NCBI RefSeq assembly: GCF_014333425.1
Contig: NZ_JACRYT010000005.1
Location: 100,116-164,115 of the forward strand
Origin: Zhenpiania hominis
Lineage (GTDB): Bacteria; Bacillota; Clostridia; Peptostreptococcales; Anaerovoracaceae
Reading direction: 5' to 3'
DNA: 64,000 nucleotides
Position 1 is the stretch's first letter; each line of letters opens with the position of its first letter. The notes beneath the pieces are model-generated. The model had not been told where the DNA came from, did no database searches, and was given only the letters and a program-made list of their open reading frames with translations. Both the position numbers and the translations under genes were made by a program. Shown piece by piece: positions 4,956 to 63,473 of the stretch.

Positions 4956-5090
4956 AACGAATGCTAAAAATTTAAACCTGATAATATATAATTACGGACA
5001 ACATTGTAATACATGTGAAATGGTTATTGATGAATTTCTTATATATGTGACAACTTTGATATAGAAAAAGATGTATGGATATATGAGATA

Positions 5091-6515: not shown

Positions 6516-6564
6516 TATTCAATGGCATTGTAATTAATAAACAAGAAGTTGAGAGGAGATTAGA

Positions 6565-7524: not shown

Positions 7525-7527
7525 GAT

Positions 7528-8736: not shown

Positions 8737-8771
8737 GATATTTAGCCTAAAAAGGTGAAAAGGAGATGGAT

Positions 8772-9842: not shown

Positions 9843-9858
9843 AGGAGGGAGTGTGCAT

Positions 9859-10593: not shown

Positions 10594-10604
10594 GAGGAAC
10601 ATAA

Positions 10605-11330: not shown

Positions 11331-11348
11331 GGAAAGGAGAACGGATTC

Positions 11349-12029: not shown

Positions 12030-12047
12030 CGGAGGGAAGATGCATAA

Positions 12048-12932: not shown

Positions 12933-12975
12933 TTTTTTTGTGATCTAAAAATTATGAGAAGGAGAAACTAATTGG

Positions 12976-20821: not shown

Positions 20822-21943
20822 ATGAAGTTTTATCAGGTGGAATCTATCAAAGAGCAGGAAATCGTTTATTATATTATTCGGAGAATGACTGATTTTTGTA
20901 TGCTTCCGGAAGAAAGTCAGTATCTTGCCTATCGGATTCGTACGAACCTATCACCCAATACGGTGAAGCGCGCGGCATTTTCCATTATGTATTACTGCGA
21001 GTTTCTAAAACAAAAGGATTTAAGAAAAGAAGAGATCTGGCAACTTTCTTTTGCGTTCCAGCACGAGCATTTCATTGAATTTTTGAATTGGTTAAAAAAT
21101 GGGAACCATACGGATCGTAAAGGAAAATTGCCAAGTAATCGAACCTGTAATATGTACCTGAGAGATGTATTAGAATTTTACCGTTATCTTGAACAGCAGG
21201 GAACGGAAGAATTAAAAGTGCTTTCGGAACAGGAGAACACCTTTATAACTTCCTGTGGCATTCGGAAGCATAAAATGATCAGGCGATTTCGAGGTTTCTT
21301 CAGAGAGGAGCCATCCAAAGGGGATAGCATTACAGCAGAACGTATCGGAGCACTCGTGGCAGCTTGTACGAATCTGAGAGATTCCCTGCTTCTGCTACTT
21401 CTGGCAGAAACCGGATTTCGAATTGGAGAGATTCTGGGAATTCGATTGGAGGATATTGATTTTTCTTCCAGACAAATTCAAGTCCAGTTTCGATCCAATA
21501 ATAAAAATCAGGCGAGAGCAAAAAACGCAGAATATCGAAAGGCACTTTTAAGTCCGACCACCTTTTCTCATTTAACAACCTATCTGACACAATGCAGAAA
21601 GAATGGATATTCGGATTATCTATTCGTGAACTTAGAAGGAAAACAGCTTGGCCAACCCATGAAGGTACAAAGCGTTTATGCGATGCTAAAACGATTGGAA
21701 CAGAAAACCGGAATTGCAAGCCATCCACATCAACTCCGTCATTATTTTGCTAATGCACGGTACAATGCAGGCTGGGAGTTGCTTTTGATTAGTAAAGCTC
21801 TTGGTCACAGGCAGCTAGAGACCACGCGCAACTATCTGAATCTGGAAGAGGAAACGCTGCGCAGTGCGTCTCAAACGTATTTTGAACAGACTGAAGCGCT
21901 TACGCAGATTTCGACGCTGATTGGAAACGGAGGGCAAGAATGA
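20822..21943 (+). CDS. Tyrosine recombinase, Tn554 TnpA-like
   Basis: This 373-residue site-specific recombinase is the first of three in tandem. The N-terminal SAM-like core-binding domain covers about residues 1-150. The catalytic domain shows Arg200 in ETGFRIGEIL, HPHQLRHYF with the second His-Arg pair, LGHRQLETTRNY with GH and the nucleophilic Tyr. Its length is close to TnpA of Tn554 (361). GAGAGGGAAT precedes the ATG. The gene overlaps the next recombinase by 4 bases (ATGA). It probably catalyses integration and excision of the surrounding element together with its two partners. Confidence 0.92.
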   Translation: MKFYQVESIKEQEIVYYIIRRMTDFCMLPEESQYLAYRIRTNLSPNTVKRAAFSIMYYCEFLKQKDLRKEEIWQLSFAFQHEHFIEFLNWLKNGNHTDRKGKLPSNRTCNMYLRDVLEFYRYLEQQGTEELKVLSEQENTFITSCGIRKHKMIRRFRGFFREEPSKGDSITAERIGALVAACTNLRDSLLLLLLAETGFRIGEILGIRLEDIDFSSRQIQVQFRSNNKNQARAKNAEYRKALLSPTTFSHLTTYLTQCRKNGYSDYLFVNLEGKQLGQPMKVQSVYAMLKRLEQKTGIASHPHQLRHYFANARYNAGWELLLISKALGHRQLETTRNYLNLEEETLRSASQTYFEQTEALTQISTLIGNGGQE

Positions 21944-23628: not shown

Positions 23629-23643
23629 GGAAGGAATAAAGAA

Positions 23644-25134
23644 ATGAAAAAACAGGCACACCAAAGCAATGGATTGGAACTGCAAGCGTGTTCGGATGCA
23701 CGCAGCAAACATCGTGAAGAAGCATGGAAGGCTCCTTTACATTGGCTCAAGAAGGAGAAGCTGCGGGAGGAACTACGCACCTTTCTGGACACTCGTGTAC
23801 AAGAGGTTTCATTTACTACCTGGAAAAAGGAGAAATCTCCCTGTCGACAGGTTTGTCGGTTTTTAGAAGAAAAGGAATCTGAGTTGAAAAGTTTTCATGA
23901 AAAAACCTATGAGGAACTTAAACAGAGTCTGACCGCATGGCTGCTTGCAAATGGGTATGTGGTGTATAAGAAGCACTATCGTAAGGATAGAGGGAAATAT
24001 ACTTATCAGGATGCGGATGCAATCTGTTATTTAAAAAAGATCTATCGATTTTTAGGCAAAAAGGAGGAGTCGGAAGTTTCGGATCCGTGGGACTTGCGTT
24101 CCCTGGATATTCCTCCGGAACAAAATCCAATCAATCCACATTATCGGTTAGATTTTGTAGGAATCAAACAAGATGCAATGCGACAGGAAGTGAAAGACGT
24201 GTTGGCTTTTCATGCTCGATATAAAGCGGCGGAGACACTGCGGCTGGAATTGTGGGCAGTAACCGCTTTTTCCCGTTTTTTGCAGAAGAGCTTCCCAGAA
24301 GTGGAGTCGTTTAAACAGATTCAAAGAGTGCAACTGGAAGACTACCTTATCTATGTACGGACAGAATCAAAACTGAAAAGTTCCAGTTATGCTTCGCAGT
24401 TTGTACATTTAAAGAATGTATTCATTGATCTCGGACAAATGAAGGAATGGCCGCATTTGACCAATCTCTTTTTAAAAACAGATTTTAAGACACGGATTAC
24501 AATCAAAATGAAAATCTATTCGGAAGAAGAACTGAAACGACTGAATCAAGGAATTGTAACATTGGAACCACAAGTTGCACGGGCACTGTTCCTGCATCAG
24601 ATTCTGGGGCTTCGAATTTCAGATACACTGACGCTGCGAACCGACTGTCTTCTTGAGAAGTGTGCAGGTTTTGTGATTCGCATCCACCAGCCGAAAACGA
24701 CATCCTATGAAAAGCCAATCACGGAGGAGGTGATGCAGTTGGTGCAGGCCGCAATTTCGAATACCTTTCAGAACCATGGAGAAACGGACTATATCTTCGT
24801 TCAGGATCGCCATCCGGAAAAACCGATGTCCTATGGGAAAGTGGAATATCAATTGAAGGCAATGATTCGAGAAAAACAAATCTTAGATGATCAGGGAACT
24901 CTCCTTCAATTTGGTACACATATTTTTCGGCATAATTATGGAAAGAAATTGGCGGAATTGGGGCTGGATGATTATACGATTATGCAGCTTCTTGGACATT
25001 CTACGTTACGATCGATACGACATTACCGGATGTTAGGTAGCAAACAGTTAGCAGAAGAGACAAGAGAGATGCGCAACAAGCTGGATCGGCGCATACGGCC
25101 ATATTTACAGGAGTGGGGTTATGAAGAAGTATGA
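23644..25134 (+). CDS. Third tyrosine recombinase of the operon
   Basis: The protein has 496 residues. The C-terminal catalytic domain shows QILGLRISDTLTLRTD (Arg), GTHIFRHNYGKKLAELG (His-x-x-Arg-His) and LLGHSTLRSIRHYRMLG (GH and Tyr), so it looks active. Tn554 itself has only two recombinases plus TnpC; three in a row resembles recombinase-in-trio arrangements, but those normally lack TnpC. The 3' end overlaps the TnpC-like gene by 14 bases. AAGGAAGGA precedes the ATG. Confidence 0.9.
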   Translation: MKKQAHQSNGLELQACSDARSKHREEAWKAPLHWLKKEKLREELRTFLDTRVQEVSFTTWKKEKSPCRQVCRFLEEKESELKSFHEKTYEELKQSLTAWLLANGYVVYKKHYRKDRGKYTYQDADAICYLKKIYRFLGKKEESEVSDPWDLRSLDIPPEQNPINPHYRLDFVGIKQDAMRQEVKDVLAFHARYKAAETLRLELWAVTAFSRFLQKSFPEVESFKQIQRVQLEDYLIYVRTESKLKSSSYASQFVHLKNVFIDLGQMKEWPHLTNLFLKTDFKTRITIKMKIYSEEELKRLNQGIVTLEPQVARALFLHQILGLRISDTLTLRTDCLLEKCAGFVIRIHQPKTTSYEKPITEEVMQLVQAAISNTFQNHGETDYIFVQDRHPEKPMSYGKVEYQLKAMIREKQILDDQGTLLQFGTHIFRHNYGKKLAELGLDDYTIMQLLGHSTLRSIRHYRMLGSKQLAEETREMRNKLDRRIRPYLQEWGYEEV

Positions 25135-30879: not shown

Positions 30880-30916
30880 AATTACAAAAATATAACAACT
30901 AAATACTTCGGATGAG

Positions 30917-31086
30917 GATAGCTTTAGACATTCTATTTAATTAGGAGGCCGAAGAAGCAAATCAGAATAGTGGCAGTTATTCTGTGGAAACTGACAGGCA
31001 AAAGGAAGGTTATCTGACGAGTCTTTGGAGAGATCACTTCAGTGTGGCGCCTACGTGGATATAACCAACTGGCAAAGGGACAGAGA
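30917..31086 (+). promoter_or_regulatory. Tandem glycine-type riboswitch
   Basis: Aptamer 1 (30917-31014) has P1 GATAGCT/GGTTATC with G-U pairs, the core CCGAAGAAGCAA at 30949-30960 and AGGCAAAAGGA at 30996-31006, as in gcvT-type glycine aptamers. A 7-base linker leads to aptamer 2 (31022-31086) with GGAGAG at 31027-31032 and CTGGCAAAGGGA at 31069-31080. Its middle core, GGCGCCTACGTGG at 31046-31058, departs strongly from the usual CCGAAGGGGCAA. P1 of aptamer 2 pairs TCTTT (31022) with AGAGA (31082). AGAGA is also the start of the terminator stem, so ligand binding should block termination: an ON switch. It controls the dehydrogenase and permease genes downstream. Confidence 0.8.
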
Positions 31087-31128
31087 AATATGCAGCACCG
31101 GCTTTGGTGAAGTATATTTCTCTTTTTT
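31082..31128 (+). terminator. Riboswitch-controlled intrinsic terminator
   Basis: AGAGAAATAT at 31082-31091 pairs perfectly with ATATTTCTCT at 31114-31123, with an inner CACC/GGTG stem, followed by six T residues. Its first five bases are shared with the closing helix of aptamer 2, which makes the two folds mutually exclusive. Confidence 0.88.
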
Positions 31129-31243
31129 ATGTATACCCTGAAGCCGAAAGGAAAAGGAAATATTTTTTCTGCATGATGTATTTAGTTTTCTACTGCTGAG
31201 AAAGAACCCGTAAAAACGGATCAAACGCGAGGAGGAAATGAGT

Positions 31244-32557
31244 ATGAAAATGTTATTAGTAGGAGCGGGAGCGGTAGGTGAATCCATTCTTCGTATTCTG
31301 CAGGTAAGAGATCCGGAAGGAAAGTGGCTGGAAAAAGTTGTAGTGGGCGATTACGATTTTGATAGGGCAAAAGAGGTCTGTGAACATCTGGCAGGTGATA
31401 AGCGTTTCACTCCGCAGCAGTTAAATGCGAAAAATACGAATGAACTGGTAGAAATTATTAGAAAGCAGGACTGCAACTTTGTGATGGATGCAGCCGCGCC
31501 TTTTGTTTCCAATAATATTTTTGACGCTGCTTATGAAGCGGGAGCTGATTATGTGAGCATGGGGACATGGTCTGTGCCGTACGACCCACCTATTTATGGA
31601 ACACTGGAGGAAAGCTTTTCTGAGCCTATGTCCAAATACAACTTTGATCGGCATGAACAATGGAAAGAAAAAGGGAATATGGCTTGTATCTGCCTCGGCA
31701 TCGACCCGGGCGTTGTAGATGTATTCGCCAAATTCGCGGCGGAATATCTGTTTGACGAGCTGAAAGAGATTCATGTAAAAGATGGAGGAAATCTGGAAAT
31801 CCCAAGTGCGGGTGAAGACGATATCACCTTTGGGTTCAACGTCTGGACTGTACTTGACGAATGTATTAACCCAAATGTAGAGTGGGATAAGGAGAAGGGT
31901 TACATAACGGATGTTCCTTTTGCAGGAGAAGAAGTTTTTGAAATGCCTGCTGGGGTCGGCCCGAATACGATGGTAAAAATCGAACATGAAGAAACCGTTT
32001 TGATGCCGCGGTTTCTGGAGAAATATGGTTTGGAAAAATGCACCTTCAAGATCTCTCTGGACGAGAATCTGATGCAGGCGCTGAAAGTTATTACAGCACT
32101 GGGACTGCGCAGTCTGGAACCGGTAGAGGTAAACGGGGTTAAAGTGGTTCCTAGAGATATTGTCGCGGCCTGTGCGCCTCAGCCGAAAGATATCGGAGAT
32201 GAGATGATCGGAAAAATGTGCGTTGGAATCCATTGCAAAGGAATCAAAGATGGAAAAGAAAGAGAAATTTTTATGTATCAGCCCTTTGATAACCAGGAAT
32301 CCATGAAAAGATGGAATATGCAGGCGGTTGTTGCCCAGACCGGATTTGGAGCGGCTGTGGGAATTGAATTGATCGGCAGAGGTATATGGAAAGACGCGGG
32401 AGTCTTTGCGCCGGAATATTTTGATCCGATTCCGTATCTGGAGATTATGGATGAAGCAGGCTTTGAATATGGTTTTGTAGAAATGGATTCTCCTTATAAA
32501 ACGGCTCAAGACAAAGAAAAGATGGCGGAAATCTTTGCAAAAGCAAAGAAAAAGTAA
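31244..32557 (+). CDS. Saccharopine dehydrogenase family oxidoreductase
   Basis: The 437-residue protein has the NAD(P)-binding Rossmann start MLLVGAGAVGESILRIL and the family blocks MDAAAPFVSNNIFDAAYEAGADYVS and LGIDPGVVDVFAKFAAE. Relatives include lysine-forming and lysine-degrading saccharopine dehydrogenases and carboxynorspermidine dehydrogenase; I cannot decide the substrate. AGGAGG lies 8 bases before the ATG at 31244 but only 2 before the ATG at 31238. The gene is preceded by the glycine-type riboswitch and followed by an amino acid permease, so an amino acid reductive or oxidative step linked to uptake is likely. Confidence 0.88.
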   Translation: MKMLLVGAGAVGESILRILQVRDPEGKWLEKVVVGDYDFDRAKEVCEHLAGDKRFTPQQLNAKNTNELVEIIRKQDCNFVMDAAAPFVSNNIFDAAYEAGADYVSMGTWSVPYDPPIYGTLEESFSEPMSKYNFDRHEQWKEKGNMACICLGIDPGVVDVFAKFAAEYLFDELKEIHVKDGGNLEIPSAGEDDITFGFNVWTVLDECINPNVEWDKEKGYITDVPFAGEEVFEMPAGVGPNTMVKIEHEETVLMPRFLEKYGLEKCTFKISLDENLMQALKVITALGLRSLEPVEVNGVKVVPRDIVAACAPQPKDIGDEMIGKMCVGIHCKGIKDGKEREIFMYQPFDNQESMKRWNMQAVVAQTGFGAAVGIELIGRGIWKDAGVFAPEYFDPIPYLEIMDEAGFEYGFVEMDSPYKTAQDKEKMAEIFAKAKKK

Positions 32558-32630: not shown

Positions 32631-34307
32631 ATGATGAGTCAAAATCAAACTCAGGCACATACGCATGGTGTCGCAGGACTGAAAAAGCATGATATCCGGG
32701 TTTCAGGGATTGTATTTATGCTCTACTGTCTGGTAGCAGCAGGAGCTTTCGGGATTGAAGAAATGATCCCGGAGGCAGGTCCGGGAATGACGCTCATTCT
32801 CTTAATTGCGTTTCCAATTGTATGGGCGTATCCGATTAGCAATTTAGTCGCAGAGCTGGGATCCGTCCTCCCTTCAGAAGGAGGCGTATACGTATGGGCA
32901 AAAGAAGCCTTCGGCGAGTTCTGGGGCTTTCAGGCAGGATGGTGGGGGACGGTTTCCACCTATATCACAAATGGAGTATACGTTGCTTTAGTTGCGGGAT
33001 ATGTGACACAAATGATCCCTATGTCAGAGGTAGCCGTTCACGCACTGAAAATTGGAATGATTTTAATTTTCACAGTTATCAACCTGATGGGATTGAAAGA
33101 AGTAGGAAGGGTTAGTACAATTCTTTCAATCTTGATTGTACTTGCGTTTGCGTTGGTAACGGTCGTAGGACTGTTGAATTGGCAGACGAATCCGATGGAT
33201 CCAATCATGCCGGAAGGATATTCGATTGTTGATGGGATTGGTGGAGGAATTTGCATCTGTGTATGGATGTACTGTGGTTATGAATGCATTTCCAATATGG
33301 CAGGAGAAGTGAAGAATCCACAGGTAATTCCAAAAGGACTTATGATCGCTATGCCGCTGGTTGCGCTTACTTATGTACTGCCTACTTTAGCGGGGCTGGC
33401 GTCGCTTCCGGAAGGAAGTTGGGAAAACTGGACAACAGATGGCGGTTTTTCCGGTGATACCATCGGATACGCAACGGTATTGACAGCAAATCTCGGGCAG
33501 GCATGGGGGTATATCTTCCTTGTAATTGCCATTGTTTCTCAGTGCGCGATTTTTAATACCTACCTTGCTTCCGGTTCAAGAGGCTTTTTTGTACTGGCAG
33601 ATGACAATTTATGTCCGAAATTCCTTGTAAAGGTGAGCAGAAAAAGAGGAGTCCCTTATGTTGGTATTCTGTCACTTTCAGTTGTAACTCTGATTCTGGC
33701 ACAATCGGACTTTACGACGCTGGTCAGTGCAGAGGTCGTATTTATGCTTGCGCTGTATATGATTCTTCCGCTATCTGTGATTAAACTTAGAAAGACGATC
33801 CCCGTAGAAGAACGAAAAGCGAGAGGGCTTTATGTAATGCGCGGAGGAAAAGCAGGGCTGGTCTTTTACGCAGGGGCGCCGATTGTAATCGCGATTATTG
33901 CGCTTCTTGTAAATGGGACGGATTATCTGTGCATGGGTCTGATCGCTATCAGTACTGGACCGATTGCCTATATTATATTTAAAAGACTCTATGGCGGAAT
34001 GGCGAAAAATGATCCGGAACGCTATCCGGTTAATAAAAAAACAAAGCTGGCGATGGGAGATACAATCAGGATTGGGGTGTATCTTATTATCGCAGGAGCC
34101 TTTGCGTTTCTTGGCCAGTTCTGGCTGCATTGGTATGAGATTACCTGGGGCGAATGGGAGCCGAGTGATTACGATATGTTTTCAAACTCCATACCTCAGG
34201 TACTGGAAGCCTTGAAATGGGGAGGCTTAATCGCAATTGTCATTGGTATAGTATTGGCTCTTGCAGGGAGAAAATTGGAGCGGAAAGAAAATCGGCTGCA
34301 GAACTAA
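32631..34307 (+). CDS. APC family amino acid permease
   Basis: This 558-residue transporter has at least 12 membrane spans. The first helices show the APC pattern (FMLYCLVAAGAFGIEEMI and PGMTLILLIAFPIVWAYP, then SEGGVYVWAKEAFGEFWGFQAGWW). A YVMRGGKAG stretch and two further C-terminal spans follow. It imports or exchanges an amino acid or amine across the cytoplasmic membrane. It is cotranscribed with the saccharopine-dehydrogenase-like gene under the riboswitch, so the two probably share a substrate pathway. AAGGAGG precedes ATG codons at 32631 and 32634; either may be used. Confidence 0.9.
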   Translation: MMSQNQTQAHTHGVAGLKKHDIRVSGIVFMLYCLVAAGAFGIEEMIPEAGPGMTLILLIAFPIVWAYPISNLVAELGSVLPSEGGVYVWAKEAFGEFWGFQAGWWGTVSTYITNGVYVALVAGYVTQMIPMSEVAVHALKIGMILIFTVINLMGLKEVGRVSTILSILIVLAFALVTVVGLLNWQTNPMDPIMPEGYSIVDGIGGGICICVWMYCGYECISNMAGEVKNPQVIPKGLMIAMPLVALTYVLPTLAGLASLPEGSWENWTTDGGFSGDTIGYATVLTANLGQAWGYIFLVIAIVSQCAIFNTYLASGSRGFFVLADDNLCPKFLVKVSRKRGVPYVGILSLSVVTLILAQSDFTTLVSAEVVFMLALYMILPLSVIKLRKTIPVEERKARGLYVMRGGKAGLVFYAGAPIVIAIIALLVNGTDYLCMGLIAISTGPIAYIIFKRLYGGMAKNDPERYPVNKKTKLAMGDTIRIGVYLIIAGAFAFLGQFWLHWYEITWGEWEPSDYDMFSNSIPQVLEALKWGGLIAIVIGIVLALAGRKLERKENRLQN

Positions 34308-53979: not shown

Positions 53980-54255
53980 ATGGGGATAGTGGCAATTCGT
54001 TATTATAATGTATGGTTTTATTTACACTTACAATCGGAATTAGATGTGGTGAAGTTTTCATATTTATCGAAACGTATAGAAGCAGGTGACAGTTTTAGAA
54101 TGAGAGATATATATAAGTGGTGTGCTATGCAAAAAATAAACTATAGAACAAAGTTTGTATATAGAAAAGACTTTCCAGTAACAGCAAATTTCTGGAATTT
54201 TTATTCATACATACGTTCGAAAATCGAGAATGGCATATCTAAAAGAATTTCTTAG
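53980..54255 (+). CDS. Hypothetical protein next to the silent hsdS cassette
   Basis: This 91-residue frame has GGAAGGGAG 10 bases before the ATG and a possible promoter further up. The sequence is rich in Tyr, Phe and Arg (FYLHLQSELDVVKFSYLSKRIEAG, then FRMRDIYKWCAMQKINYRTK). I do not recognise a family. Its stop codon at 54253-54255 is immediately followed by the 34-bp inverted repeat of the silent hsdS cassette, so it borders the invertible DNA exactly. It could be a degenerate gene end or a small regulator. Confidence 0.4.
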   Translation: MGIVAIRYYNVWFYLHLQSELDVVKFSYLSKRIEAGDSFRMRDIYKWCAMQKINYRTKFVYRKDFPVTANFWNFYSYIRSKIENGISKRIS

Positions 54256-54289
54256 AATTTACATTATGAGAAGTTTCAGGATGGAACTG
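54256..54289 (+). repeat. IR-A left copy (34 bp), entry to the TRD1 position
   Basis: These 34 bases (starting AATTTACATTATGAGAAG) recur exactly, inverted, at 58516-58549 inside the expressed hsdS, just before its first target-recognition domain. Similarity continues with a few mismatches for about 27 more bases. Inversion between the copies would exchange both recognition domains of hsdS. Confidence 0.92.
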
Positions 54290-55659
54290 TGAAATGTATT
54301 GAGGATGAGATACCATTTGAAATGCCGGAGGGCTGGGAGTGGTGCCGAGTTCGGGATATTGCTTCTGTCAAAGGAGGTAAGCGGCTTCCAAAGGGAATGA
54401 GTTTTTCTCTTTATAAGACTTCTCATGCATATATTAGAGTCACAGATATGAAAAATCATGCTATAAATACAGATGATTTAAAATACATTTCAGAAGATGT
54501 ATTTTTGAAAATTAAAAATTATACTATTTCCAAAGATGATCTTTATGTTACTATTGCAGGTACAATTGGCGTCGCCGGTGAAGTTCCAGCAGAACTGGAT
54601 GGGATGAATCTTACTGAAAATGCTGCAAAGGTTACCAATATACAAATCAACAAATCCTTTTTGTGTTTGTTGTTGCAATCAGAATTTGTTCAGCAACAGT
54701 TTAAAGGAAAAACACATCAGGTTGCCATGCCAAAGCTGGCATTAGAACGTATTTTATCGACTTTGATTCCTGTTTGCTCTACGGAAACACAAGCAGCTAT
54801 AGTTAAAAGATTTTGCAAAATAGATCAGTTGATAGATCTAATTAGTAAAGAAAAGGATGCATTGACAGATACTGTTTCTAAGACAAAATCTAAAATTCTC
54901 GACTTGGCTATCCGTGGACAGTTGGTTCCACAAGACCCTAATGATGAACCTGCTTCTGTTCTTCTGAAACGTATCAAAGCAAAAAAGGAAGAACTTATTA
55001 AACAGAGGAAAATTAAGCGGGACAAGAGGGAGTCCATTATCTTCAAAGGTGAGGATAACTCTTATTATGAAATAATATGTAATAAAGTAAATAATTTGGA
55101 TGATTCTAATCTTTTTGATTTGCCAGACAATTGGTGTTGGTGCCGTATGCGTTCGATTGCAGATGTAAAAGGTGGGAAACGCTTACCGAAGGGCTGTAAT
55201 TTCAGTGATACCTCAACAAATCATGCCTACATCAGGGTAACAGATATGAAAAATCGAACTATAAATACAACAGATTTAAGATACATTTCTGATGAGGTTT
55301 ATGAACAAATTAAATCATATATAATTTCTAAAAATGACCTTTATATTACCATCGCAGGTACAATTGGCCTGGTTGGAGAAATACCTGATGAACTTGACAA
55401 CATGAATTTGACAGAAAATGCAGCTAAGATCTGTAACATAAAAATCAATAAAAAATATTTATTATATATACTGTCGAGTCAATTTGTACAGAATCAATTT
55501 CAAGAAAAAACACATCAAGTAGCAATGCCTAAATTAGCATTGGAAAGGATTTTGACCACAATCATTCCTATTCCGCCATTTAAGGAACAACTTCTAATTG
55601 TAAAAAAAATAGAGGAAATTTTATGTAGAATGGATGCAATAGAAAATTGTACATACTAA
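54256..55659 (+). CDS. hsdS: Silent hsdS cassette A carrying two target-recognition domains
   Basis: The frame lacks the first about 75 residues of HsdS, has a TAG directly before it and no ribosome site, so it should not be expressed. It starts at IR-A with NLHYEKFQDG, then encodes TRD1' (VKGGKRLPKGMSF...), the central conserved region KSKILDLAIRGQLVPQDPND and TRD2' (VKGGKRLPKGCNF...). The two TRDs are homologous to each other, sharing HAYIRVTDMKN and KTHQVAMPKLALERIL. A fused HsdS built from this cassette should therefore read two similar half-sites. It acts as a donor for the expressed hsdS on the opposite strand. Confidence 0.88.
   Translation, partial: NLHYEKFQDGTVKCIEDEIPFEMPEGWEWCRVRDIASVKGGKRLPKGMSFSLYKTSHAYIRVTDMKNHAINTDDLKYISEDVFLKIKNYTISKDDLYVTIAGTIGVAGEVPAELDGMNLTENAAKVTNIQINKSFLCLLLQSEFVQQQFKGKTHQVAMPKLALERILSTLIPVCSTETQAAIVKRFCKIDQLIDLISKEKDALTDTVSKTKSKILDLAIRGQLVPQDPNDEPASVLLKRIKAKKEELIKQRKIKRDKRESIIFKGEDNSYYEIICNKVNNLDDSNLFDLPDNWCWCRMRSIADVKGGKRLPKGCNFSDTSTNHAYIRVTDMKNRTINTTDLRYISDEVYEQIKSYIISKNDLYITIAGTIGLVGEIPDELDNMNLTENAAKICNIKINKKYLLYILSSQFVQNQFQEKTHQVAMPKLALERILTTIIPIPPFKEQLLIVKKIEEILCRMDAIENCTY
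55039..55070 (+). repeat. IR-B left copy (32 bp), entry to the TRD2 position of cassette A
   Basis: The 32 bases 55039-55070 (starting ATCTTCAAAGGTGAGG) recur exactly, inverted, at 57738-57769 before the second recognition domain of the expressed hsdS. Recombination here would exchange only TRD2. Confidence 0.9.
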
Positions 55660-55663
55660 TATT

Positions 55664-55692
55664 ACAGCCGTCCTTGTCATACGGACGGCTGT
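55664..55692. terminator. Hairpin between cassette A and the recombinase gene
   Basis: ACAGCCGTCC at 55664-55673 pairs perfectly with GGACGGCTGT at 55683-55692, then GCTTTTA. It separates convergent cassette A and recombinase frames and is a likely bidirectional terminator. Confidence 0.75.
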
Positions 55693-55696
55693 GCTT

Positions 55697-56506
55697 TTAC
55701 CATGTTACAATTTTATCTACAAGAGCTTGTTGCTCGCTTGATGTACGGCGTAGATAAATACGAGTTGTTTCAATACTTTCATGTCCCATCAGATCAGCCA
55801 ATAGAGCGATATCATTATATTTCTCTAAAAAATTTTTGGCATAACGGTGTCGAAAAGAGTGTGGATATACCACTTTTTTATCCAGCCCGTATTTATCGGC
55901 ATAATTTTTAAGCTGCTGAGAAATACCACGAGTAGTGATCCGTTCTCCATAGCGGTTCAAAAACAAATAGCCGGAGGCACGGTTTGTTTCCTCCAGCCAT
56001 TCGATGGTCTCTGTTCTTAATTTTTTCGGTATGTACAATCTGCGTAGTTTACCTCCCTTTGTATACAGATCGAAATATCCAAGTTCGACGTGTTCAATTT
56101 TGATCTGAATAAGTTCGCTGACACGGGCACCGGTAGCAGCCAGATACCAGACCACGAAGTACCACTCCATATTGCCGTCCTTTTTAAGCTGCTTCTTCAA
56201 AAAGTTGTAATCGGCATTGCTGATCACATTTTCAAGGAAGTTCTTCTGCTGAACCTTTACAGCTTTCAGTTGCAGCTTATCCTTTCCCAGATAGACCAAA
56301 TACTTATTCATAGCCTGAATGCGGAGATTTACCGTCTTGGGCTTATAAAACTCCATCAGATACCCTTTGTACGCCAATAGATTTTCTTTGCTGACTGCAT
56401 CGTAATGTGCATGGTAGTATTCCACCGTCCACAAATACGATGTGATCGTGTTTTCGGAAAGATTGCTCTTTCGCAGATGTTCTTCAAATGTGCTATGCTG
56501 CTTCAT
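55697..56506 (-). CDS. Tyrosine recombinase, probable hsdS invertase
   Basis: From the ATG at 56506 (GGAGG 9 bases upstream) the protein has 269 residues. Residues 1-85 are a SAM-like core-binding domain (FEEHLRKSNLSENTITSYLWTVEYY) and the rest is catalytic, with Arg in ATGARVSELIQI, HSFRHRYAKNFL, and LMGHESIETTRIY. Its position between two inverted hsdS cassettes matches the dedicated invertases of phase-variable type I systems (PsrA/CreX-like). The frame extends upstream to 56650 but this part overlaps cassette B and has no ribosome site. I infer that it recombines IR-A, IR-B and IR-C. Confidence 0.88.
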   Translation of the reverse strand: MKQHSTFEEHLRKSNLSENTITSYLWTVEYYHAHYDAVSKENLLAYKGYLMEFYKPKTVNLRIQAMNKYLVYLGKDKLQLKAVKVQQKNFLENVISNADYNFLKKQLKKDGNMEWYFVVWYLAATGARVSELIQIKIEHVELGYFDLYTKGGKLRRLYIPKKLRTETIEWLEETNRASGYLFLNRYGERITTRGISQQLKNYADKYGLDKKVVYPHSFRHRYAKNFLEKYNDIALLADLMGHESIETTRIYLRRTSSEQQALVDKIVTW

Positions 56507-56520
56507 AATAAGCGGCCTCC

Positions 56521-56559
56521 TTATAATATTTTCTGCGGTTTTCCGCACAAATATTATAA
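56521..56559. repeat. 39-bp near-perfect palindrome upstream of the recombinase gene
   Basis: TTATAATATTT at 56521-56531 and AAATATTATAA at 56549-56559 enclose TGCGG-TTTT-CCGCA. Both outer arms contain TATAAT read in opposite directions. It ends 15 bases from the recombinase ATG and 17 bases from IR-C. It may be a promoter/operator through which the recombinase regulates itself, or a leader hairpin. Confidence 0.6.
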
Positions 56560-56576
56560 AGGGAATATGTAACTTT

Positions 56577-56592
56577 CTCTTATTATGAGAAG
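56577..56592 (+). repeat. IR-C left copy (16 bp), entry to cassette B
   Basis: CTCTTATTATGAGAAG at 56577-56592 recurs inverted at 57734-57749, overlapping the right copy of IR-B. It shares the core ATTATGAGAAG with IR-A. Inversion here flips 56.6-57.7 kb and swaps TRD2. Confidence 0.75.
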
Positions 56593-57192
56593 CTTGGAGA
56601 AGATGTGTGTTGTATTGACGAAGAAATACCATATGATATTCCTGATTCATGGGAGTGGGTGCGGCTGAAGAATTGCTGCATTAAGGAAATTCGTCGTGGA
56701 AAATCGCCGAAATATACAACGAAAAGCAATACTCTTGTTTTTGCACAAAAATGTAATACAAAATATAATGGCATCGATATCGGGCTAGCATTGTATCTGG
56801 ATGAAAGCACATTAGGCAGGTATCCAAATGAAGAATATATGCATGACAACGATGTGGTTGTGAACTCTACAGGTACAGGTACTTTAGGGCGGATTGGATT
56901 GTACAGAACAACTGATAACATTTCCGGTTTACCGATAGTGCCGGATTCTCATGTAACCGTTATTCGTGGATTTCGTAGTATTCGAGCATTTTATCTGTAC
57001 ATATTTATGAAGGCAAACCAAAGTGTGCTTGAGAAAAAAGGTGAAGGTTCTACAAATCAAAAAGAGTTAAAACCAATAACATTGAAAGAAATACTGGTGC
57101 CAATGCCGCCAGCCTCCGAGCAACAACGAATTGAAAATGCTATAATTACTGCATTTTCCTTTGTTGAAACAATAGAAAAGAGCCTTAATTGA
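56578..57192 (+). CDS. hsdS: Silent hsdS cassette B carrying one target-recognition domain
   Basis: The frame opens after a TAA at 56557 and has no ribosome site. It starts at IR-C with SYYEKLGEDVCCIDEEIPYDI, followed by one TRD (KSPKYTTKSNTLVFAQKCN, then VVVNSTGTGTLGRIGLYRT) and the C-terminal PPASEQQRIENAI helix. It ends IEKSLN, as does the expressed hsdS, with which it converges tail to tail through a 16-bp inverted repeat. It is a donor for the TRD2 position. A shorter frame from ATG 56605 might be annotated as a protein but would lack the start of the domain. Confidence 0.86.
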   Translation, partial: SYYEKLGEDVCCIDEEIPYDIPDSWEWVRLKNCCIKEIRRGKSPKYTTKSNTLVFAQKCNTKYNGIDIGLALYLDESTLGRYPNEEYMHDNDVVVNSTGTGTLGRIGLYRTTDNISGLPIVPDSHVTVIRGFRSIRAFYLYIFMKANQSVLEKKGEGSTNQKELKPITLKEILVPMPPASEQQRIENAIITAFSFVETIEKSLN

Positions 57193-57207
57193 GGCTCTTT
57201 TCTATTG
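57170..57207. repeat. 16-bp inverted repeat joining the two hsdS 3' ends
   Basis: CAATAGAAAAGAGCCT at 57170-57185 and AGGCTCTTTTCTATTG at 57192-57207 with a 6-base loop. Each arm encodes the end of one hsdS frame (TIEKSLN-stop). It can act as a bidirectional terminator and as a symmetric join that keeps the 3' ends identical after inversion. Confidence 0.85.
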
Positions 57208-58744
57208 AGATGAGAAAGCTCGTCAACATAGCCATTTGTTTAACTACTCTTGCTTGATAAGCCCTTGGGGGCACTGGCAGAATTAAATTTAGGATATCTT
57301 CCCTTGATATTCCGGGGATAAGTCCTTTTGCGACGTTTTTTATGGCGCTGATATGGAAAGCCATACAAAGAGCGAGATATTCTGGATTGAGTTCGAACGT
57401 GTTGCGTATCGCCATGATTTGTCGTGCAATATGAGCGTCACCAAAATTATTGAATGCCATCTCACCGATAGTTCCCTTACAAGTGAGTAGCAAATCTCCA
57501 GTTTTGGTTATCACTTGTGGTGATGTTGTCCATCTCACCAATTCGACCTTACCGTTTGTGAAATTACTTGCTCCCGTGATATACGGAATTCCAACTCCTT
57601 CAGCATTGTATTCAGAAGACGCAAGATCTCGTCCAGAGATAAGTTCCCACATTTCTTTCAGTCGAACAAACACCCATCCATCTGGCAATTCAAAGGGGAT
57701 TTCGCCATCTATATTTACGACTGTATTGCCGACCTTCTCATAATAAGAGTTATCCTCACCTTTGAAGATGATAGATTCCTTCTTATCACGCTTGATTTTA
57801 CCCTGTTTGATGAGTTCTTCTTTTTCTGCACGGATACGTTCTAAAAGTACAGAGGCAGGCTCATCATTCGGATCTTGCGGAACAAGCTGCCCACGAATAG
57901 CAAGGTCGAGAATTTTAGATTTTGCTTGCCGTATGATTTCTTCAAGATCTTCTTTTGCGTTTTCTATTCTAATAATAAATTCAAATATTGAATTTATTTT
58001 CTGAATAATTCGAGTTTGCTCATTTCGGGGCGGGACAGGTATCAAATATTGCGAAATATAATCTTTTCCCACACGTTGCTGCCCGACTGCTCCTGAAAAA
58101 GTATGAACGCCTCCCTGAATAAAAGAATCCATTTTAGCAATCCATAATAAATATTCATTTGAAATTGTATCATCAAGTGTTCTTAATATATGAAGTTCAG
58201 TTGTTCCGGCACCATAACCATTAACCAAATCTTTAAAAATGACTGATTTCCTATTTTCAAAACATGGTGTTATTTTAGCAATGCCGATATCATTTTCTGC
58301 AAAATGAGTAAAACCACTTTTAACTTTACTCCAGGTTCGAATTTCATAGGTATACATATTTGTATATCCTTCAGAAATCAATGACATAGGGACAAAAGAT
58401 ACCTCTAAACTATCAGAAATATTATTTCTGGGATTTATGATACATATCGATCCTATTCTTGTCCATTCCCAGCCCGCTGGCACCTCAAACGGTATCTCAT
58501 CCTCAATGCATTTCTCAGTTCCATCCTGAAACTTCTCATAATGTAAATTATCTTCTCCAACATAGATTATAGAATCATTTTTTATGTCTTTTTTCTTTAG
58601 TTTTCCTTCCTTGACCATCCGGGCTTTTTCTTCACGGATTTTTTCTAATAAAACAGAGGCAGGCTCATCACTGGGATCCTGCGGTACAAGTTTTCCACGA
58701 ATAGCAAGATCCAATATCTTTTGGCGTAATGCTTTTGTATCCAC
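57185..58744 (-). CDS. hsdS: Expressed type I restriction specificity subunit HsdS
   Basis: This 519-residue protein determines the DNA sequence read by the methylase and nuclease. It has an N-terminal conserved region (LRQKILDLAIRGKLVPQDPS), TRD1 (about residues 85-250), a central conserved region that repeats the first (KILDLAIRGQLVPQDPND), TRD2 (about 345-505) and a short C-terminus. It starts with GTG overlapping the hsdM stop (TAGTG), so only this copy is coupled to hsdM. Right copies of IR-A (58516-58549), IR-B (57738-57769) and IR-C (57734-57749) lie at its TRD entries. The present allele is TRD1a-TRD2a. Confidence 0.94.
   Translation of the reverse strand: MDTKALRQKILDLAIRGKLVPQDPSDEPASVLLEKIREEKARMVKEGKLKKKDIKNDSIIYVGEDNLHYEKFQDGTEKCIEDEIPFEVPAGWEWTRIGSICIINPRNNISDSLEVSFVPMSLISEGYTNMYTYEIRTWSKVKSGFTHFAENDIGIAKITPCFENRKSVIFKDLVNGYGAGTTELHILRTLDDTISNEYLLWIAKMDSFIQGGVHTFSGAVGQQRVGKDYISQYLIPVPPRNEQTRIIQKINSIFEFIIRIENAKEDLEEIIRQAKSKILDLAIRGQLVPQDPNDEPASVLLERIRAEKEELIKQGKIKRDKKESIIFKGEDNSYYEKVGNTVVNIDGEIPFELPDGWVFVRLKEMWELISGRDLASSEYNAEGVGIPYITGASNFTNGKVELVRWTTSPQVITKTGDLLLTCKGTIGEMAFNNFGDAHIARQIMAIRNTFELNPEYLALCMAFHISAIKNVAKGLIPGISREDILNLILPVPPRAYQARVVKQMAMLTSFLISIEKSLN
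57734..57769 (-). repeat. IR-B and IR-C right copies in the expressed hsdS
   Basis: 57738-57769 is the exact inverted partner of 55039-55070 (32 bp), and 57734-57749 that of 56577-56592 (16 bp). They overlap at the codons SYYEK that begin TRD2, so TRD2 can be exchanged with either silent cassette. Confidence 0.88.
58516..58549 (-). repeat. IR-A right copy in the expressed hsdS
   Basis: This is the exact inverted partner of 54256-54289 (34 bp), covering the codons NLHYEKFQDGT just before TRD1. Confidence 0.92.
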
Positions 58745-60174
58745 TATTCTTCAACCTCCCCGATCAATTCTTCCAGTTGTGCTACGGCTTTTGAAATATT
58801 TTCAGATTTAGTTTTTATTAAATCCAAGAGTTCTGCCAGGGTATAATCATCGGTCGGATTATCAGCTTTGATCCATGCGATATCTAAGCTTGTTTTGTCA
58901 CGAGCCAAAATTTCTTCATAAGTATATTTTCTCCAGCGGCCATTTGGATTTTCTTCACTATAGGTTTCTTGGCGCTTTGAAAGGTCTCCACCTGCATAGC
59001 ATTGCTCGAATTCTTCGAAGTCTGATTCTTTAAGAGGGTTTGTTTTTCCAAAGGAGGGCATATCTGTCCGGAGATCATAGATCCACACCTCTTTTGTATT
59101 TCCGTGGTCAGTCTGTCCTCTGGTAAAAAACAGTACGTTTGTTTTTACGCCTTGGGCATAAAAAATACCTGTGGGTAAGCGAAGAATAGTATGCAAGTTG
59201 CACTTTTCCATAAGATCGCGGCGTATTTTTTCACCGTCACTATCTGCAAACAACACATTGTCCGGAAGTACAACAGCAGCACGGGCAGTGCCAGTTGTTT
59301 TTAGACTCCTATAAATATGCTGGAGAAAATTAAGCTGTTTGTTGCTGGTCGGGAATGTGAAATCGTCACGAGTTGCACGTTCACCACCTTTTTTTGTTCC
59401 GAATGGAGGATTTGTTAATACCACATCGTATCCTTTTAGCTGCTTTCCAAAATTAGAAAGCGTATCTCCAAGATAAATAGGACCATCAATATCATGGAGC
59501 ATTGCGTTCATTAAGGCCAGACGGTGTGTATCGTGAACAAGTTCACAACCGGAAAAAGCAGCAGTGCGCTGGAATTCTTGTAAATCAATAGGCAGATCAA
59601 AAAGGTTGTCCGTATTATTCTTTATATATTGGTCTGCAGCAATCATGAATCCAAAAGTACCACAGGCGGGATCATTGCAACGTTCTCCGGGCTGTGGAGA
59701 AAGCAAACGAGTCATGACGTTGATTAGTACACGAGGAGTGAAATACTGTCCGGCTCCAGATTTTTTTTCGTTTGCGTTTTTTTCCAAAAGCCCTTCATAT
59801 AAATTGCCAAGACCTTCCTCTTTTGCAGAATACCAATCAAACTGATCGATGGTCGTAATAATTTTTTCCAGATTCTTCGGTTCTTCTATATTTGTTTGTG
59901 CACCCTGGTAAATTTCACGAACCCGCCCAGTACAATTTTCACCTAAGTATTCCAGCAATTCTTTATAAAATTTCTTCAGTTCCAGTCCTTGTTTCGTAAT
60001 GAGATTATCCCATCTGTATTTTTCCGGGATAGAACTTTCACTGTTTGTTTCTTTACACATTTTAAGAAACAGGATATATGTAAGCTCTGTTACATATTGA
60101 TGGTAAGTAATGCCATCATCCCTAAGAACGTTACAGAGATTCCATAATTTTGCTACAAGTTCCTGATTATTCAC
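58744..60174 (-). CDS. hsdM: Type I restriction-modification DNA methyltransferase HsdM
   Basis: This 476-residue N6-adenine methyltransferase has the HsdM N-terminal helical domain (LWNLCNVLRDDGITYHQYVTE), SAM motif I DPACGTFGF and the catalytic NPPFG in VVLTNPPFGTKKGG. It overlaps hsdR by 4 bases (ATGA) and hsdS by 1 base, so all three subunits are translated as a unit. A two-M one-S complex would methylate host DNA at whatever site the current HsdS specifies, so allele switching changes the methylome. Confidence 0.95.
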   Translation of the reverse strand: MNNQELVAKLWNLCNVLRDDGITYHQYVTELTYILFLKMCKETNSESSIPEKYRWDNLITKQGLELKKFYKELLEYLGENCTGRVREIYQGAQTNIEEPKNLEKIITTIDQFDWYSAKEEGLGNLYEGLLEKNANEKKSGAGQYFTPRVLINVMTRLLSPQPGERCNDPACGTFGFMIAADQYIKNNTDNLFDLPIDLQEFQRTAAFSGCELVHDTHRLALMNAMLHDIDGPIYLGDTLSNFGKQLKGYDVVLTNPPFGTKKGGERATRDDFTFPTSNKQLNFLQHIYRSLKTTGTARAAVVLPDNVLFADSDGEKIRRDLMEKCNLHTILRLPTGIFYAQGVKTNVLFFTRGQTDHGNTKEVWIYDLRTDMPSFGKTNPLKESDFEEFEQCYAGGDLSKRQETYSEENPNGRWRKYTYEEILARDKTSLDIAWIKADNPTDDYTLAELLDLIKTKSENISKAVAQLEELIGEVEE

Positions 60175-63100
60175 GCTACTGTTCCTCCATCCTCATACAT
60201 ATATTTGTTAATTTCTGTAATTATATCGTGCAATTTTCCACCAAAGCGGCGATCTATATTGGAAAAGCCACCTGCATTGCGGAATGCACCAACTTCGAAA
60301 ATTTGTTCGTCCAGAACGGATTCCTCTAACAAGACTTTTTCTATACGCTTCAGCCAGTCTAACTGATTTTTATTAAAAGTGTGGTTGAGGCGTAATTTGG
60401 CAAAAGCGTGTTTTACCCTTTGTTCATGACTGATTAGTGTAGAGCCGATAGCCTGTTGACGTATAAAAGCAATAATATCTGCGGCAATATCCTGATTTGT
60501 CATATCATTCCATGCAGAATTTAATTGCTTTTCTGTAAAGTCGTGACGATCAAGTTCTAATAATAAAGTTTTTAAATCTTTACGAGTCAACTCGGTAGGC
60601 TTTGTACATACAGTTTTTAATGCAGCAATTGAATTCAAATTATTTTGGATAAATTCACGGAAGGATTCTATATAATCTTCCGGTTTTTGTCCTGTACCGT
60701 AGCCTCTTGTATGACTGATGACCTTATCATCATGGTCATCAATGATACGTCCATGTTTACGCTTGCTTTTATCATAATCTAAGACTGAAAATGCTTCTCT
60801 ATGTTTAAGAATATGTTCTTTTGCCTCATTGGCAGACCAATGCTCTAATTTGTGTGCAAAGGAAGCAAGATCATTACCGTCTGATAAAGCCATAAACTGT
60901 TCCAACCCTTTTTTGCTTATGTTCCGGCGTTTACGTTGCAATTTGGCCACGATTTGATCTATCTGGTACGCAATCTGATCTTCTGAGGTTAGAATTTCCA
61001 ACCCTTTTAATAAATCTTCAAAACTTGTGGTGGGATTAACCACTACAGGTTTCATATTACTAACATCTTGCAATGTTTCATAAACGCCGACAGGATCGTA
61101 GATTTCAAAATGCGTTTTTTCAATTTCAGGGCATAAGCGGGTGGCTCGTCCTAACATCTGCTCGAAAAGAATACGAGATCTGATCCGGCGCATAAAAACC
61201 AGGTTAGTTATTTCAGGGACATCAATACCTGTTGTTAACAGGTCTACAGTAACAACCACTTTTGGGTTTTGTTCATTTTTAAAACGTTTGATGGCTTCAA
61301 GAATTTTCTTTTTATTTCCGCCTTCGATGCTACCAGTGATTTTCATAACTGCATCATTTGCCACGCCTCCTTCACTGTAAATATTTTTTAAGATTTTTAC
61401 AATAAGATCAGCATGATCATCGTCAACCGCATAAATCAGTGTTTTGCCAGGGCCATCAGGATTAAAGTCCCAAGCAATCTCCTCAAAAACAGCACGGTTA
61501 AATTTTTCTGTCACAACTTGACGATTAAAGGTATCTATATCAAATTTCATATCATCTTCCAGTTCATCACTATTTAGAAGTTCGCCAGAAATAGGGTCAT
61601 AGATAACCAAGCTATCGCCTTTTTTGTATTGGATCCCTTCTGTTCCCAGACGTGTGCGGATATTATGAGGAGCATCGTGGTCAACGAGATATCCATCTAT
61701 GACAGCTTCACGGTAGGAATAGTTAAAAATTGGCTTACCAAATATTTCAGTTGTATGTAGAGCAGGTGTCGCTGTCAGAGCAATTTTTACCGCATCAAAA
61801 TATTCGATGACTGTACGATATTTGCTAATGTAATCGTCTTGATTGCGGTACAATAATTCGGAATCACTCATATCTTTGTCCAGAGCGTATCCACGATGAG
61901 CCTCATCAACAACGATTAAATCATAGTCAGTTACAGAAGGCATTGTTTCATCTTCATTAAAAAGGATTTTCCGAACAAGACTTTGTACTGTAGCAACCTG
62001 AAGCCTTGTCTCTGGGTCAATATCCTTATCATCCAGCCCTTTGATGGAATAGATGGAACCGAGTGTCATTAATTCTTCCAGCTTTACCTCTTTAAATACA
62101 TCCATAGCCTGTTCACCTAAAGCATTCCGATCAACCAAGAATAAAATGCGCCTAAAGCGATTGCTACGAATAAAGCGGTAAATCATTCCAAGTATAGTAC
62201 GGGTTTTCCCTGTTCCAGTAGCCATAGATAAGAGGACATTTGTTTTGCCGTTAATAATAGCCTGTTCTGCAGCTTCGATAGCCTGAATTTGATAATCTCG
62301 CAGATTCAGCCCATCAGGATCTCGTAAAAAGTCGTACGGAGCATTCGTAAGTGTAGCATTCGCACTTTCTATATCTTTTTCTAATAATTCCATAATGCCC
62401 TGTGCGCTTATCCATCCCTGTAAAGCTTTGTCTGGATTTGTGTTTTTACGAACATCACGGAACCATATTCCAGATTTGGTTTCTATTTGTTTCAGGTATT
62501 TTCTTCCGTTAGTGGCAAACAAGAACGGTACCTTATACTCACCCCAAGAGGAGATTATATATTTTTGGTGTTCATTACGAATCATTTTTGCGTATTCGGC
62601 GCACTGATAAGAAAGAACAGAAGGAATGTCTATGGCAGCCTTTTTTGCTTCGATAATTCCCACCATCTTTTCACCAATAAAGAGTGCATAGTCAGCATAG
62701 CCAAATTTTCCTGTTGTGGAATCGGTAGGCCATTCGGCAATGGCTATATTGCGACCCTTCTGGGGACGTGTTCCTTTTGGATAACGAAGATTGTTTGTAT
62801 CAGCTTCCCAACCGACACGCCGCAACTGATCGTCAATAATAATACGTGTTTCTGCCTCAGATAATTCCATATTTTCAGAGACAGATTCCGCTTTTTTGGT
62901 TCTTTCTTTTATGGAACTATTGGATACGGACGTTTTAACAGTATCTACTTGCTTCATCAGTTCTGCTATTTTAGCTTCTTGTTCTTTAATTATAGAATCA
63001 TAATCGGGCTGGATGGTCTCCGCGGGCATAGCAAAAGCAGGTGCCGTAAAATCCCAATCACCGTAAACTTCCATAAACCAGACTGCGAGATTATATGTAA

Positions 63101-63431
63101 GAGAAAGCAGGGTCTTGGAGTCATCTACGGAATTAATATATTTGTGAACAGCATCATTTCTGTTTTTCCGAAGAGCATATAATATATCATCTATTTTTTT
63201 AGGAATTAACCTTTCGCGCTTCAGAATACGGATTCTGTGGGCATGTGTATTGTCATAAGATGGCTCTGAAAGTTTTTCAAAAGCAAAAATTTCATGAACC
63301 AATCGTTCCCCAAACATTCCTAATTTGTACATACATGAGTTCGGATCTGAATATAAATAGTGTTCTGCCGTTTCACCGATTTGAGCGAGTGCAGGCCAAT
63401 ATTTTTTTAAAAAATAAAAATTGGACTTCAT
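60171..63431 (-). CDS. hsdR: Type I restriction endonuclease subunit HsdR
   Basis: The protein has 1086 residues from the ATG at 63431, which has GAGGAGG upstream; the frame to 63446 lacks it. An N-terminal DUF4145-like helical region is followed by a PD-(D/E)xK nuclease domain (GYADYALF and GIIEAKKA). The superfamily 2 translocase has Walker A in SMATGTGKTRT, DEAH in VVDEAHRGY and motif VI in QMLGRATRLCPE. A C-terminal EcoEI-type HsdM-contact region completes it. No frameshift is seen, so restriction should be active. Confidence 0.95.
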   Translation of the reverse strand: MKSNFYFLKKYWPALAQIGETAEHYLYSDPNSCMYKLGMFGERLVHEIFAFEKLSEPSYDNTHAHRIRILKRERLIPKKIDDILYALRKNRNDAVHKYINSVDDSKTLLSLTYNLAVWFMEVYGDWDFTAPAFAMPAETIQPDYDSIIKEQEAKIAELMKQVDTVKTSVSNSSIKERTKKAESVSENMELSEAETRIIIDDQLRRVGWEADTNNLRYPKGTRPQKGRNIAIAEWPTDSTTGKFGYADYALFIGEKMVGIIEAKKAAIDIPSVLSYQCAEYAKMIRNEHQKYIISSWGEYKVPFLFATNGRKYLKQIETKSGIWFRDVRKNTNPDKALQGWISAQGIMELLEKDIESANATLTNAPYDFLRDPDGLNLRDYQIQAIEAAEQAIINGKTNVLLSMATGTGKTRTILGMIYRFIRSNRFRRILFLVDRNALGEQAMDVFKEVKLEELMTLGSIYSIKGLDDKDIDPETRLQVATVQSLVRKILFNEDETMPSVTDYDLIVVDEAHRGYALDKDMSDSELLYRNQDDYISKYRTVIEYFDAVKIALTATPALHTTEIFGKPIFNYSYREAVIDGYLVDHDAPHNIRTRLGTEGIQYKKGDSLVIYDPISGELLNSDELEDDMKFDIDTFNRQVVTEKFNRAVFEEIAWDFNPDGPGKTLIYAVDDDHADLIVKILKNIYSEGGVANDAVMKITGSIEGGNKKKILEAIKRFKNEQNPKVVVTVDLLTTGIDVPEITNLVFMRRIRSRILFEQMLGRATRLCPEIEKTHFEIYDPVGVYETLQDVSNMKPVVVNPTTSFEDLLKGLEILTSEDQIAYQIDQIVAKLQRKRRNISKKGLEQFMALSDGNDLASFAHKLEHWSANEAKEHILKHREAFSVLDYDKSKRKHGRIIDDHDDKVISHTRGYGTGQKPEDYIESFREFIQNNLNSIAALKTVCTKPTELTRKDLKTLLLELDRHDFTEKQLNSAWNDMTNQDIAADIIAFIRQQAIGSTLISHEQRVKHAFAKLRLNHTFNKNQLDWLKRIEKVLLEESVLDEQIFEVGAFRNAGGFSNIDRRFGGKLHDIITEINKYMYEDGGTVA

Positions 63432-63473
63432 AATATTCCTCCTCAATAGTCATGTTCCCATAATAAAAAAATA

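Follow-up and report, generated by a model that had tools for sequence, protein, structure and literature searches.

A probable recombinase-driven hsdS shufflon on a Type I restriction-modification operon, with putative dif-like sites in hsdS codons

The closest described counterpart of the locus reported here is the pneumococcal SpnIII (cod/ivr) locus, for which eight arrangements (PMC4948785) and six HsdS proteins (PMC7394358) are described. A REBASE survey found 3.9% of 22,107 hsdS genes duplicated with inverted repeats, Ruminococcus being among the hosts (PMC7394358), and in the hCom2 gut community inverton group 145 is common to Bacteroidota and Firmicutes_A, with horizontal spread inferred (PMC11892184). 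Here we analyse a 64,000-nucleotide stretch of contig NZ_JACRYT010000005.1, hereafter the window, in which positions 54256-63446 hold a complete Type I restriction-modification (R-M) operon, the gene of an Xer-like tyrosine recombinase and, facing the other way, a pair of hsdS cassettes that lack a start. We propose that this locus is very probably a recombinase-driven hsdS shufflon, in which the target recognition domains (TRDs) of a single expressed HsdS would be exchanged by inversion.

The layout follows that of the pneumococcal locus (PMC4948785, PMC6620402, PMC7394358, PMC7096588): the expressed hsdS is 1560 bp here and 1566 bp there, one cassette carries two TRDs and the other a single TRD (an open reading frame (ORF) of 588 bp here and 609 bp there), the recombinase lies between the cassettes, and the three repeat pairs measure 16, 219 and 87 here and 15, 298 or 333, and 85 there. 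The operon holds full hsdR, hsdM and hsdS genes (Table 1). A preliminary description of this DNA had placed two start-less cassettes opposite hsdS with a tyrosine recombinase between them, a gene order borne out by the ORFs and family matches; it had also described a complete hsdS fused to hsdM, of which the complete gene stands and the fusion does not, the hsdM stop TAG and the hsdS start GTG overlapping by one base, 58744, that is common to both. Residues 6-258 of the 269-residue recombinase match the XerA model, with bit scores below the equivalog cut-offs for XerA (137 against 220), XerC (97 against 335) and XerD (93 against 330), and five of its six PDB matches are Xer-type, the sixth being an integron integrase. 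Its kinship with CreX/PsrA is judged from 68% identity to the recombinase of L095, a locus with the published 15-bp pneumococcal repeat, PsrA itself not having been identified by name. Ahead of the silent cassette hsdS' lies a 91-aa ORF (53980-54255, +) that matches no Pfam or NCBIfam model and whose own TAG stop is the stop before the cassette.

Table 1. Features of the locus, in window coordinates. IR, inverted repeat.
Feature	Position	Strand	Description
hsdR	60171..63446	-	1091 aa, Type I restriction subunit, EcoEI_R_C domain; NF008521 1422 bits (cut-off 729)
hsdM	58744..60174	-	476 aa, N6 adenine methyltransferase; PF02384 5.8e-71, PF12161; 4-base overlap with hsdR
Expressed hsdS (TRD1a-TRD2a)	57185..58744	-	519 aa, GTG start; PF01420 in two stretches; HsdS structures 3okg, 5ybb
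Tyrosine recombinase (P0001)	55697..56506	-	269 aa, XerA/XerC/XerD-like; between both cassettes
Silent cassette hsdS' (TRD1b-central region-TRD2b)	54256..55659	+	in-frame TAG 54253-54255 ahead of repeat
Silent cassette hsdS'' (TRD2c)	56577..57192	+	in-frame TAA directly upstream; without own start before repeat
IR1, left arm	54256..54342	+	87 nt, 91% complementary to 58463-58549
IR2, left arm	54884..55102	+	219 nt, 79% complementary to 57706-57924
IR3, left arm	56577..56597	+	21 nt, 90% complementary to 57729-57749
Proposed crossover site, expressed TRD1	58531..58558	-	left arm GGAGAAGATAA, centre TTTACA, right arm TTATGAGAAGT
Proposed crossover site, expressed TRD2	57733..57760	-	left arm GGTGAGGATAA, centre CTCTTA, right arm TTATGAGAAGG
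Proposed crossover site, TRD2c	56566..56593	+	centre CTCTTA, right arm TTATGAGAAGC; left arm not coding-type
Proposed crossover site, TRD1b	54247..54274	+	centre TTTACA, right arm TTATGAGAAGT
Proposed crossover site, TRD2b	55048..55075	+	left arm GGTGAGGATAA, centre CTCTTA; right arm preserved only as far as TTATGA

A script search for exact inverted matches reproduced to the base the three pairs that had been listed earlier, of 34 bp (54256-54289/58516-58549), 32 bp (55039-55070/57738-57769) and 16 bp (56577-56592/57734-57749), and these do map to the starts of recognition domains as had been claimed; further exact pairs of 20 bp (54884/57905) and 17 bp (54298/58491) lie inside longer imperfect repeats. 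Inverting hsdS genes are recognised in PMC7394358 by exact inverted repeats of 20 bp or more; hsdS' has two of that length (34 and 32 bp), and hsdS'' has the 16-bp repeat only. In 200 Markov-1 simulations of the region, the mean length of the longest exact inverted match was 12.1 bp and the maximum 16 bp, reached once in the 200, and the 34- and 32-bp pairs are therefore far above chance. The 16-bp pair is borderline by length alone and is supported by its position and its recurrence in relatives. Part of the likeness between the repeats is plain hsdS homology, which lies outside the simulated model.

In the model that we favour, the Xer-like recombinase would act on short dif-like sites lying in the hsdS codons that open each recognition domain. 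A flip between an expressed site and a silent-cassette site at IR1 would swap TRD1 together with everything after it, and a flip at IR2 or IR3 would swap TRD2, so that the one expressed hsdS could cycle through six proteins and thereby six target sequences, for methylation and restriction alike. Given the layout here, the recombinase gene would be turned over with the segment in a flip at IR1 or IR2 and would stay in place in a flip at IR3. When sites of opposite orientation that share the 6-bp centre and the right arm (16 letters for TRD1, 12 letters for TRD2) are inverted in silico, the process closes on eight DNA arrangements and six full-length HsdS proteins, all six in frame: 1a-2a (519 aa), 1a-2b (531), 1a-2c (536), 1b-2a (520), 1b-2b (532) and 1b-2c (537). 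Up to six had also been expected earlier from two TRD1 and three TRD2 options. A looser rule that accepts any exact inverted match of at least 16 bp also yields mosaics, single-TRD and three-domain forms, and the count of six therefore rests on site-specific exchange. The TRD options, the six products, the Xer-type recombinase and the inverted segments found between close relatives with homologous loci support the earlier reading of an SpnIII-like system; switching in the source strain, a change of its methylation and an effect on gene expression (a phasevarion) are parts of the model that we infer, and a gut commensal is a plausible host. Among named matches to the host RecN the best are those of Anaerovorax odorimutans (79%) and Hominibacterium faecale (78%), two members of Anaerovoracaceae, a family known from the gut; TrmA, compared with 397 genomes, gave 54% for the best match listed, too little to place the host.

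The inverted segments come from relatives collected in one scan of genome contigs with the recombinase, the best 80 of 117 being taken and 81 loci examined. Many of the relatives listed carry the same plan, with repeats at stereotyped distances. Between loci L039 and L040 a 1197-bp segment lying between 16-bp repeats is reversed and 100.0% identical, with flanks at 98.5-98.6%; over positions 8600-10000, 1387 of 1401 positions agree after in-silico inversion of 8726-9922, and 588 before. What sets L073 apart from L074 includes a 1074-bp flip at another site, where 1062 of 1074 positions agree once the segment is inverted and 258 without inversion. L019 and L021 carry two segments, about 86% identical, in opposite orientations, as would be expected of flips at repeats of two classes. 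Of the 43 loci with an hsdM match, 24 have the recombinase on the hsdM strand and 19 have it on the other. An ordinary Type I system carrying a relic, duplicated hsdS and doing no switching might be suspected, given that hsdS duplication with inverted repeats is no rarity in the survey cited above; set against the dedicated recombinase, the cassettes that are truncated exactly at the sites and the clean inversions between relatives, this explanation is highly improbable. What may be an ON/OFF version is seen at L106 (7006-9169), in the family of G658, where the hsdS start behind hsdM reads for 94 aa only, running into the recombinase end, and in-silico inversion between two TTGTCA sites gives a 480-aa HsdS.

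The proposed crossover sites can be aligned as a left arm (GGTGANGATAA), a 6-bp centre and a right arm (TTATGAGAAG), which together encode G-[ED]-D-N-x-[HY]-Y-E-K and carry a partial dyad ATAA-N6-TTAT. They appear to fit the 11+6+11 plan of Xer dif sites (PMC5357621), here written in hsdS codons, as a likeness rather than as proof of cleavage positions; set beside the E. coli dif sequence (PMC2731167), the arms of the window's TRD2 site match at 9 of 11 and 7 of 11 positions. The right arm starts alike, and at the same place, in each of the window's five sites; the coding left arm is present in three of them, both expressed sites and the TRD2b site. Across loci, silent sites retain the centre and right arm, and the coding left arm is usually absent. 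The TRD2c site lies 59 bp upstream of the recombinase start and points away from the recombinase. The non-coding stretch upstream of the recombinase (56507-56576) also holds an inverted repeat, TTATAATATT...AATATTATAA, with an inner GCGG/CCGC stem and similar patterns in many relatives, which is a possible control element. A candidate site copy at the recombinase start codon (56502-56521) was dismissed as coincidence: such copies were flagged in 10 of the 81 loci, and the ATTATG context of the start codon accounts for them.

The codons over the sites are themselves constrained, as judged from 155 hsdS segments of 65 loci, each classed by its best match to an N-terminal or a central query. At the N-terminal site every one of the 37 glutamates is encoded by GAG, and at the central site 96 of 103 glycines are encoded by GGT. 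Mean divergence from the codon usage of the recombinase of the same locus is 0.85 bits at the N-terminal site and 0.77 bits at the central site, compared with 0.29 and 0.27 for the other codons of the segments. In a within-gene control the motif window ranks second of 69 in the N-terminal alignment and fourth of 60 in the central one; the constraint is thus wider than 27 bp, as the top central window begins four codons further upstream. The N-terminal hsdS family occurs in 10 of 250 genomes of one family, five of which have matches on both strands of one contig, so that recombinase-free cases are too few to serve as a control.

Several observations weigh against the shufflon model. The expressed TRD1 of L039 (8008-8725) aligns to L040 over its last 173 bases only, at 89%, and about 0.5 kb of L073 is absent from L074, so that a single flip does not account for the difference in either pair. 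No HsdS of another phase of the source strain was found among the best 120 of 7995 and the best 120 of 7993 protein-database matches, a search of low power given how rarely the strain is sampled. In clustering at 90% the expressed HsdS falls in a cluster of five members and the silent ORF in one of three, compared with 52 for the host RecN, and the locus is therefore either rare or seldom caught in another phase. Exchange of TRD2b may be slow because the right arm of its site is damaged. The single phase seen among the matches listed, together with that degenerate arm, would suit a frozen or decaying shufflon whose architecture is intact, whose recombinase is silent or inactive and whose specificity is fixed. 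We regard such a state as improbable: the recombinase ORF is intact, matches the XerA model over nearly all of its own length and is 97% identical to that of another species (L001), the repeats are exact and longer than chance, and all six products are still in frame.

A further point against the model comes from the pneumococcus, where loss of CreX abolished 15-bp inversions, reduced 333-bp inversions and left 85-bp inversions unaffected (PMC6620402). This result, and the length of IR1 and IR2 here (87 and 219 nt), would agree with repeats that recombine mainly by homologous or other recombination, the recombinase of the locus serving the 16-bp pair only. This we consider unlikely, since the right-arm start is the same and in the same place at all five sites of the window, and the codon constraint peaks around the site, though extending a few codons upstream in the central segment. 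Pneumococcal PsrA, moreover, inverts all three repeat pairs in vitro, and in vivo all three inversions depend on it to differing degrees (PMC7096588).

The 6-bp centre provides a possible reason for the domains remaining in their slots. In the present locus TTTACA is the centre of both TRD1 sites and CTCTTA that of each of the three TRD2 sites, and the TRD1-slot and TRD2-slot centres differ in all 28 of the 28 loci with coding sites classed to both. The recombinase-side centre equals that of a coding site of its own locus in 39 of 48 cases (47 loci), and the silent TRD1 centre does so in 24 of 27 (27 loci). Loci in which no coding site was found had been set aside beforehand, namely 11 of the 58 that have a recombinase-side site and 5 of the 32 that have a silent TRD1 one. 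Label shuffles, which do not keep relatedness, average 16.1 and 9.1 matches respectively, and none of 5000 reaches the observed numbers. Eight of the nine recombinase-side misses fall in loci where only one class of coding site was found, and the ninth (L051) has a second, matching recombinase-side site; the three silent TRD1 misses are all in loci for which no TRD1 coding site was identified. Where loci are divergent, their centres are altered yet still paired: TCGCTA and CTGCTA in L048, TCGCCA and CTGCTA in L050, TTGCTA and CTGTTA in L054, and TTCCCA and CAAGTA in L056. Strand exchange by tyrosine recombinases generally needs an identical exchange region in both partners. The slot-specific centres, taken with this requirement, suggest that the 6-bp centre may be the exchange region and may act as an address code holding TRD1 and TRD2 cassettes in their own slots.

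More broadly, these loci may have captured dif-like sites whose centre became an address label, one recombinase running two non-crossing shufflons in a module that moves between unrelated Type I families and phyla, with the pneumococcal CTCTT and GAAAC as one instance; we are evenly divided over this wider proposal. The slot-specific centres could instead be a by-product of conserved peptides and of homogenisation by recombination, with no functional address code, and indeed the centres do encode residues of N-L-H-Y and N-S-Y-Y, the loci are related, and the label shuffle ignores that relatedness. To this we give a substantial but lesser-than-even credence, as same-slot centres change together in divergent loci, in both slots in L048, L050, L054, L056 and L061 and in one slot in L063, and the synonymous choice between TTTACA and TTTGCA likewise matches between expressed and silent sites within a locus. 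An address code, if real, would explain both why domains stay in their slots and why a 15-bp repeat suffices in the pneumococcus, and would supply a simple signature by which genomes could be searched for such switches. In the titles and opening parts of abstracts listed by literature searches, no dif-like site or slot-specific centre is described for hsdS, the nearest being a passage on a 10-bp core and on the CTCTT/GAAAC difference in PMC6620402. TRDs appear once to have moved between slots by another route, as TRD1b and TRD2b (54289-55656, +) are 64% identical and one TRD family therefore occupies both slots of hsdS'; the remaining TRD pairs are weakly alike, at 21-33% over part or most of their length. 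L056, from Bacteroidales, has four minus-strand sites at 7455-9096, all with the CAAGTA centre, which suggests a larger multi-cassette shufflon.

The recombinase and its sites seem to travel as a module between Type I families and hosts. This follows from the L001 locus, whose recombinase is nearly identical to that of the window and whose HsdM is only 43% identical, from three bands of HsdM identity to the window among the 40 loci aligned over more than 300 residues (28-30% in 11, 43-48% in 12 and 74-87% in 17), and from the family of G658, which may be that of the host, where a recombinase match at E 1e-80 or better occurs in 5 of 349 genomes, at 59-84% identity by best match. Between the window and L001, the recombinase and the TRD2c region align at 82% DNA identity.

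Other parts of the window hold further features. Three consecutive tyrosine recombinase genes at 20822-25134 (+), encoding 373, 562 and 496 aa and all matching PF00589, have an arrangement which we take to be that of a recombinase-in-trio (RIT) element. A Glycine-GGAnGA riboswitch at 30908-31087 (+; 160.8 bits) stands ahead of a saccharopine-dehydrogenase-type gene (31238-32557), whose match to carboxynorspermidine synthase is far under the cut-off, and the gene at 32631-34307 is amino-acid transporter-like by reading of the sequence alone. Positions 1-13000 (+) hold polysaccharide synthesis- and export-like genes, as judged from the ORF list only, and a protein-kinase-like ORF lies at 13943-14884.

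Systems of this kind are already known, from SpnIII/cod, from the REBASE survey (PMC7394358) and from gut invertons (PMC11892184), and comparison with them places the locus as follows. The published 15-bp pneumococcal repeat is present in L095 and L099, in the family of G413 (that of L063, Streptococcaceae), the recombinase of L099 being 63% identical to that of the window over residues 6-203. In the pneumococcus a 10-bp core, ATTATGGGAA, has CTCTT in front of it in the 15- and 333-bp repeats, and GAAAC takes that place in the 85-bp repeat (PMC6620402); these published sequences fit the plan of slot-specific centres; in the family that includes L063, CTCTTA and GAAACA centres are both seen. 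The window's operon belongs to another Type I family than the streptococcal-type loci L107-L110, as its HsdM is 32% and its HsdR 26-27% identical to theirs. Its TRD1 centre is TTTACA, in contrast to GAAACA in L107-L110, and its recombinase-side site is upstream of and divergent from the recombinase, whereas L107-L110 have this site on the recombinase strand, directly after the stop of that gene, and in three of the four a TRD match follows.

Inverton group 145 resembles the locus in its short inverted repeats over hsdS and its nearby tyrosine recombinase (PMC11892184), and its repeat is likely identical to the window site. The XerCD/dif and XerA/dif systems resemble it in the 11+6+11 plan, the arm matches and the matches of the recombinase to Xer models and structures; unlike them, the locus is an accessory one with a single recombinase and with sites within coding sequence, and it would invert DNA rather than resolve dimers. 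The known examples thereby gain a well-formed switch with six specificities, whose host probably belongs to Anaerovoracaceae, and loci from Clostridia, Bacteroidales and streptococcal relatives are tied to one site plan. What is added beyond the known kind is this cross-phylum site plan and, with it, the address-code hypothesis.

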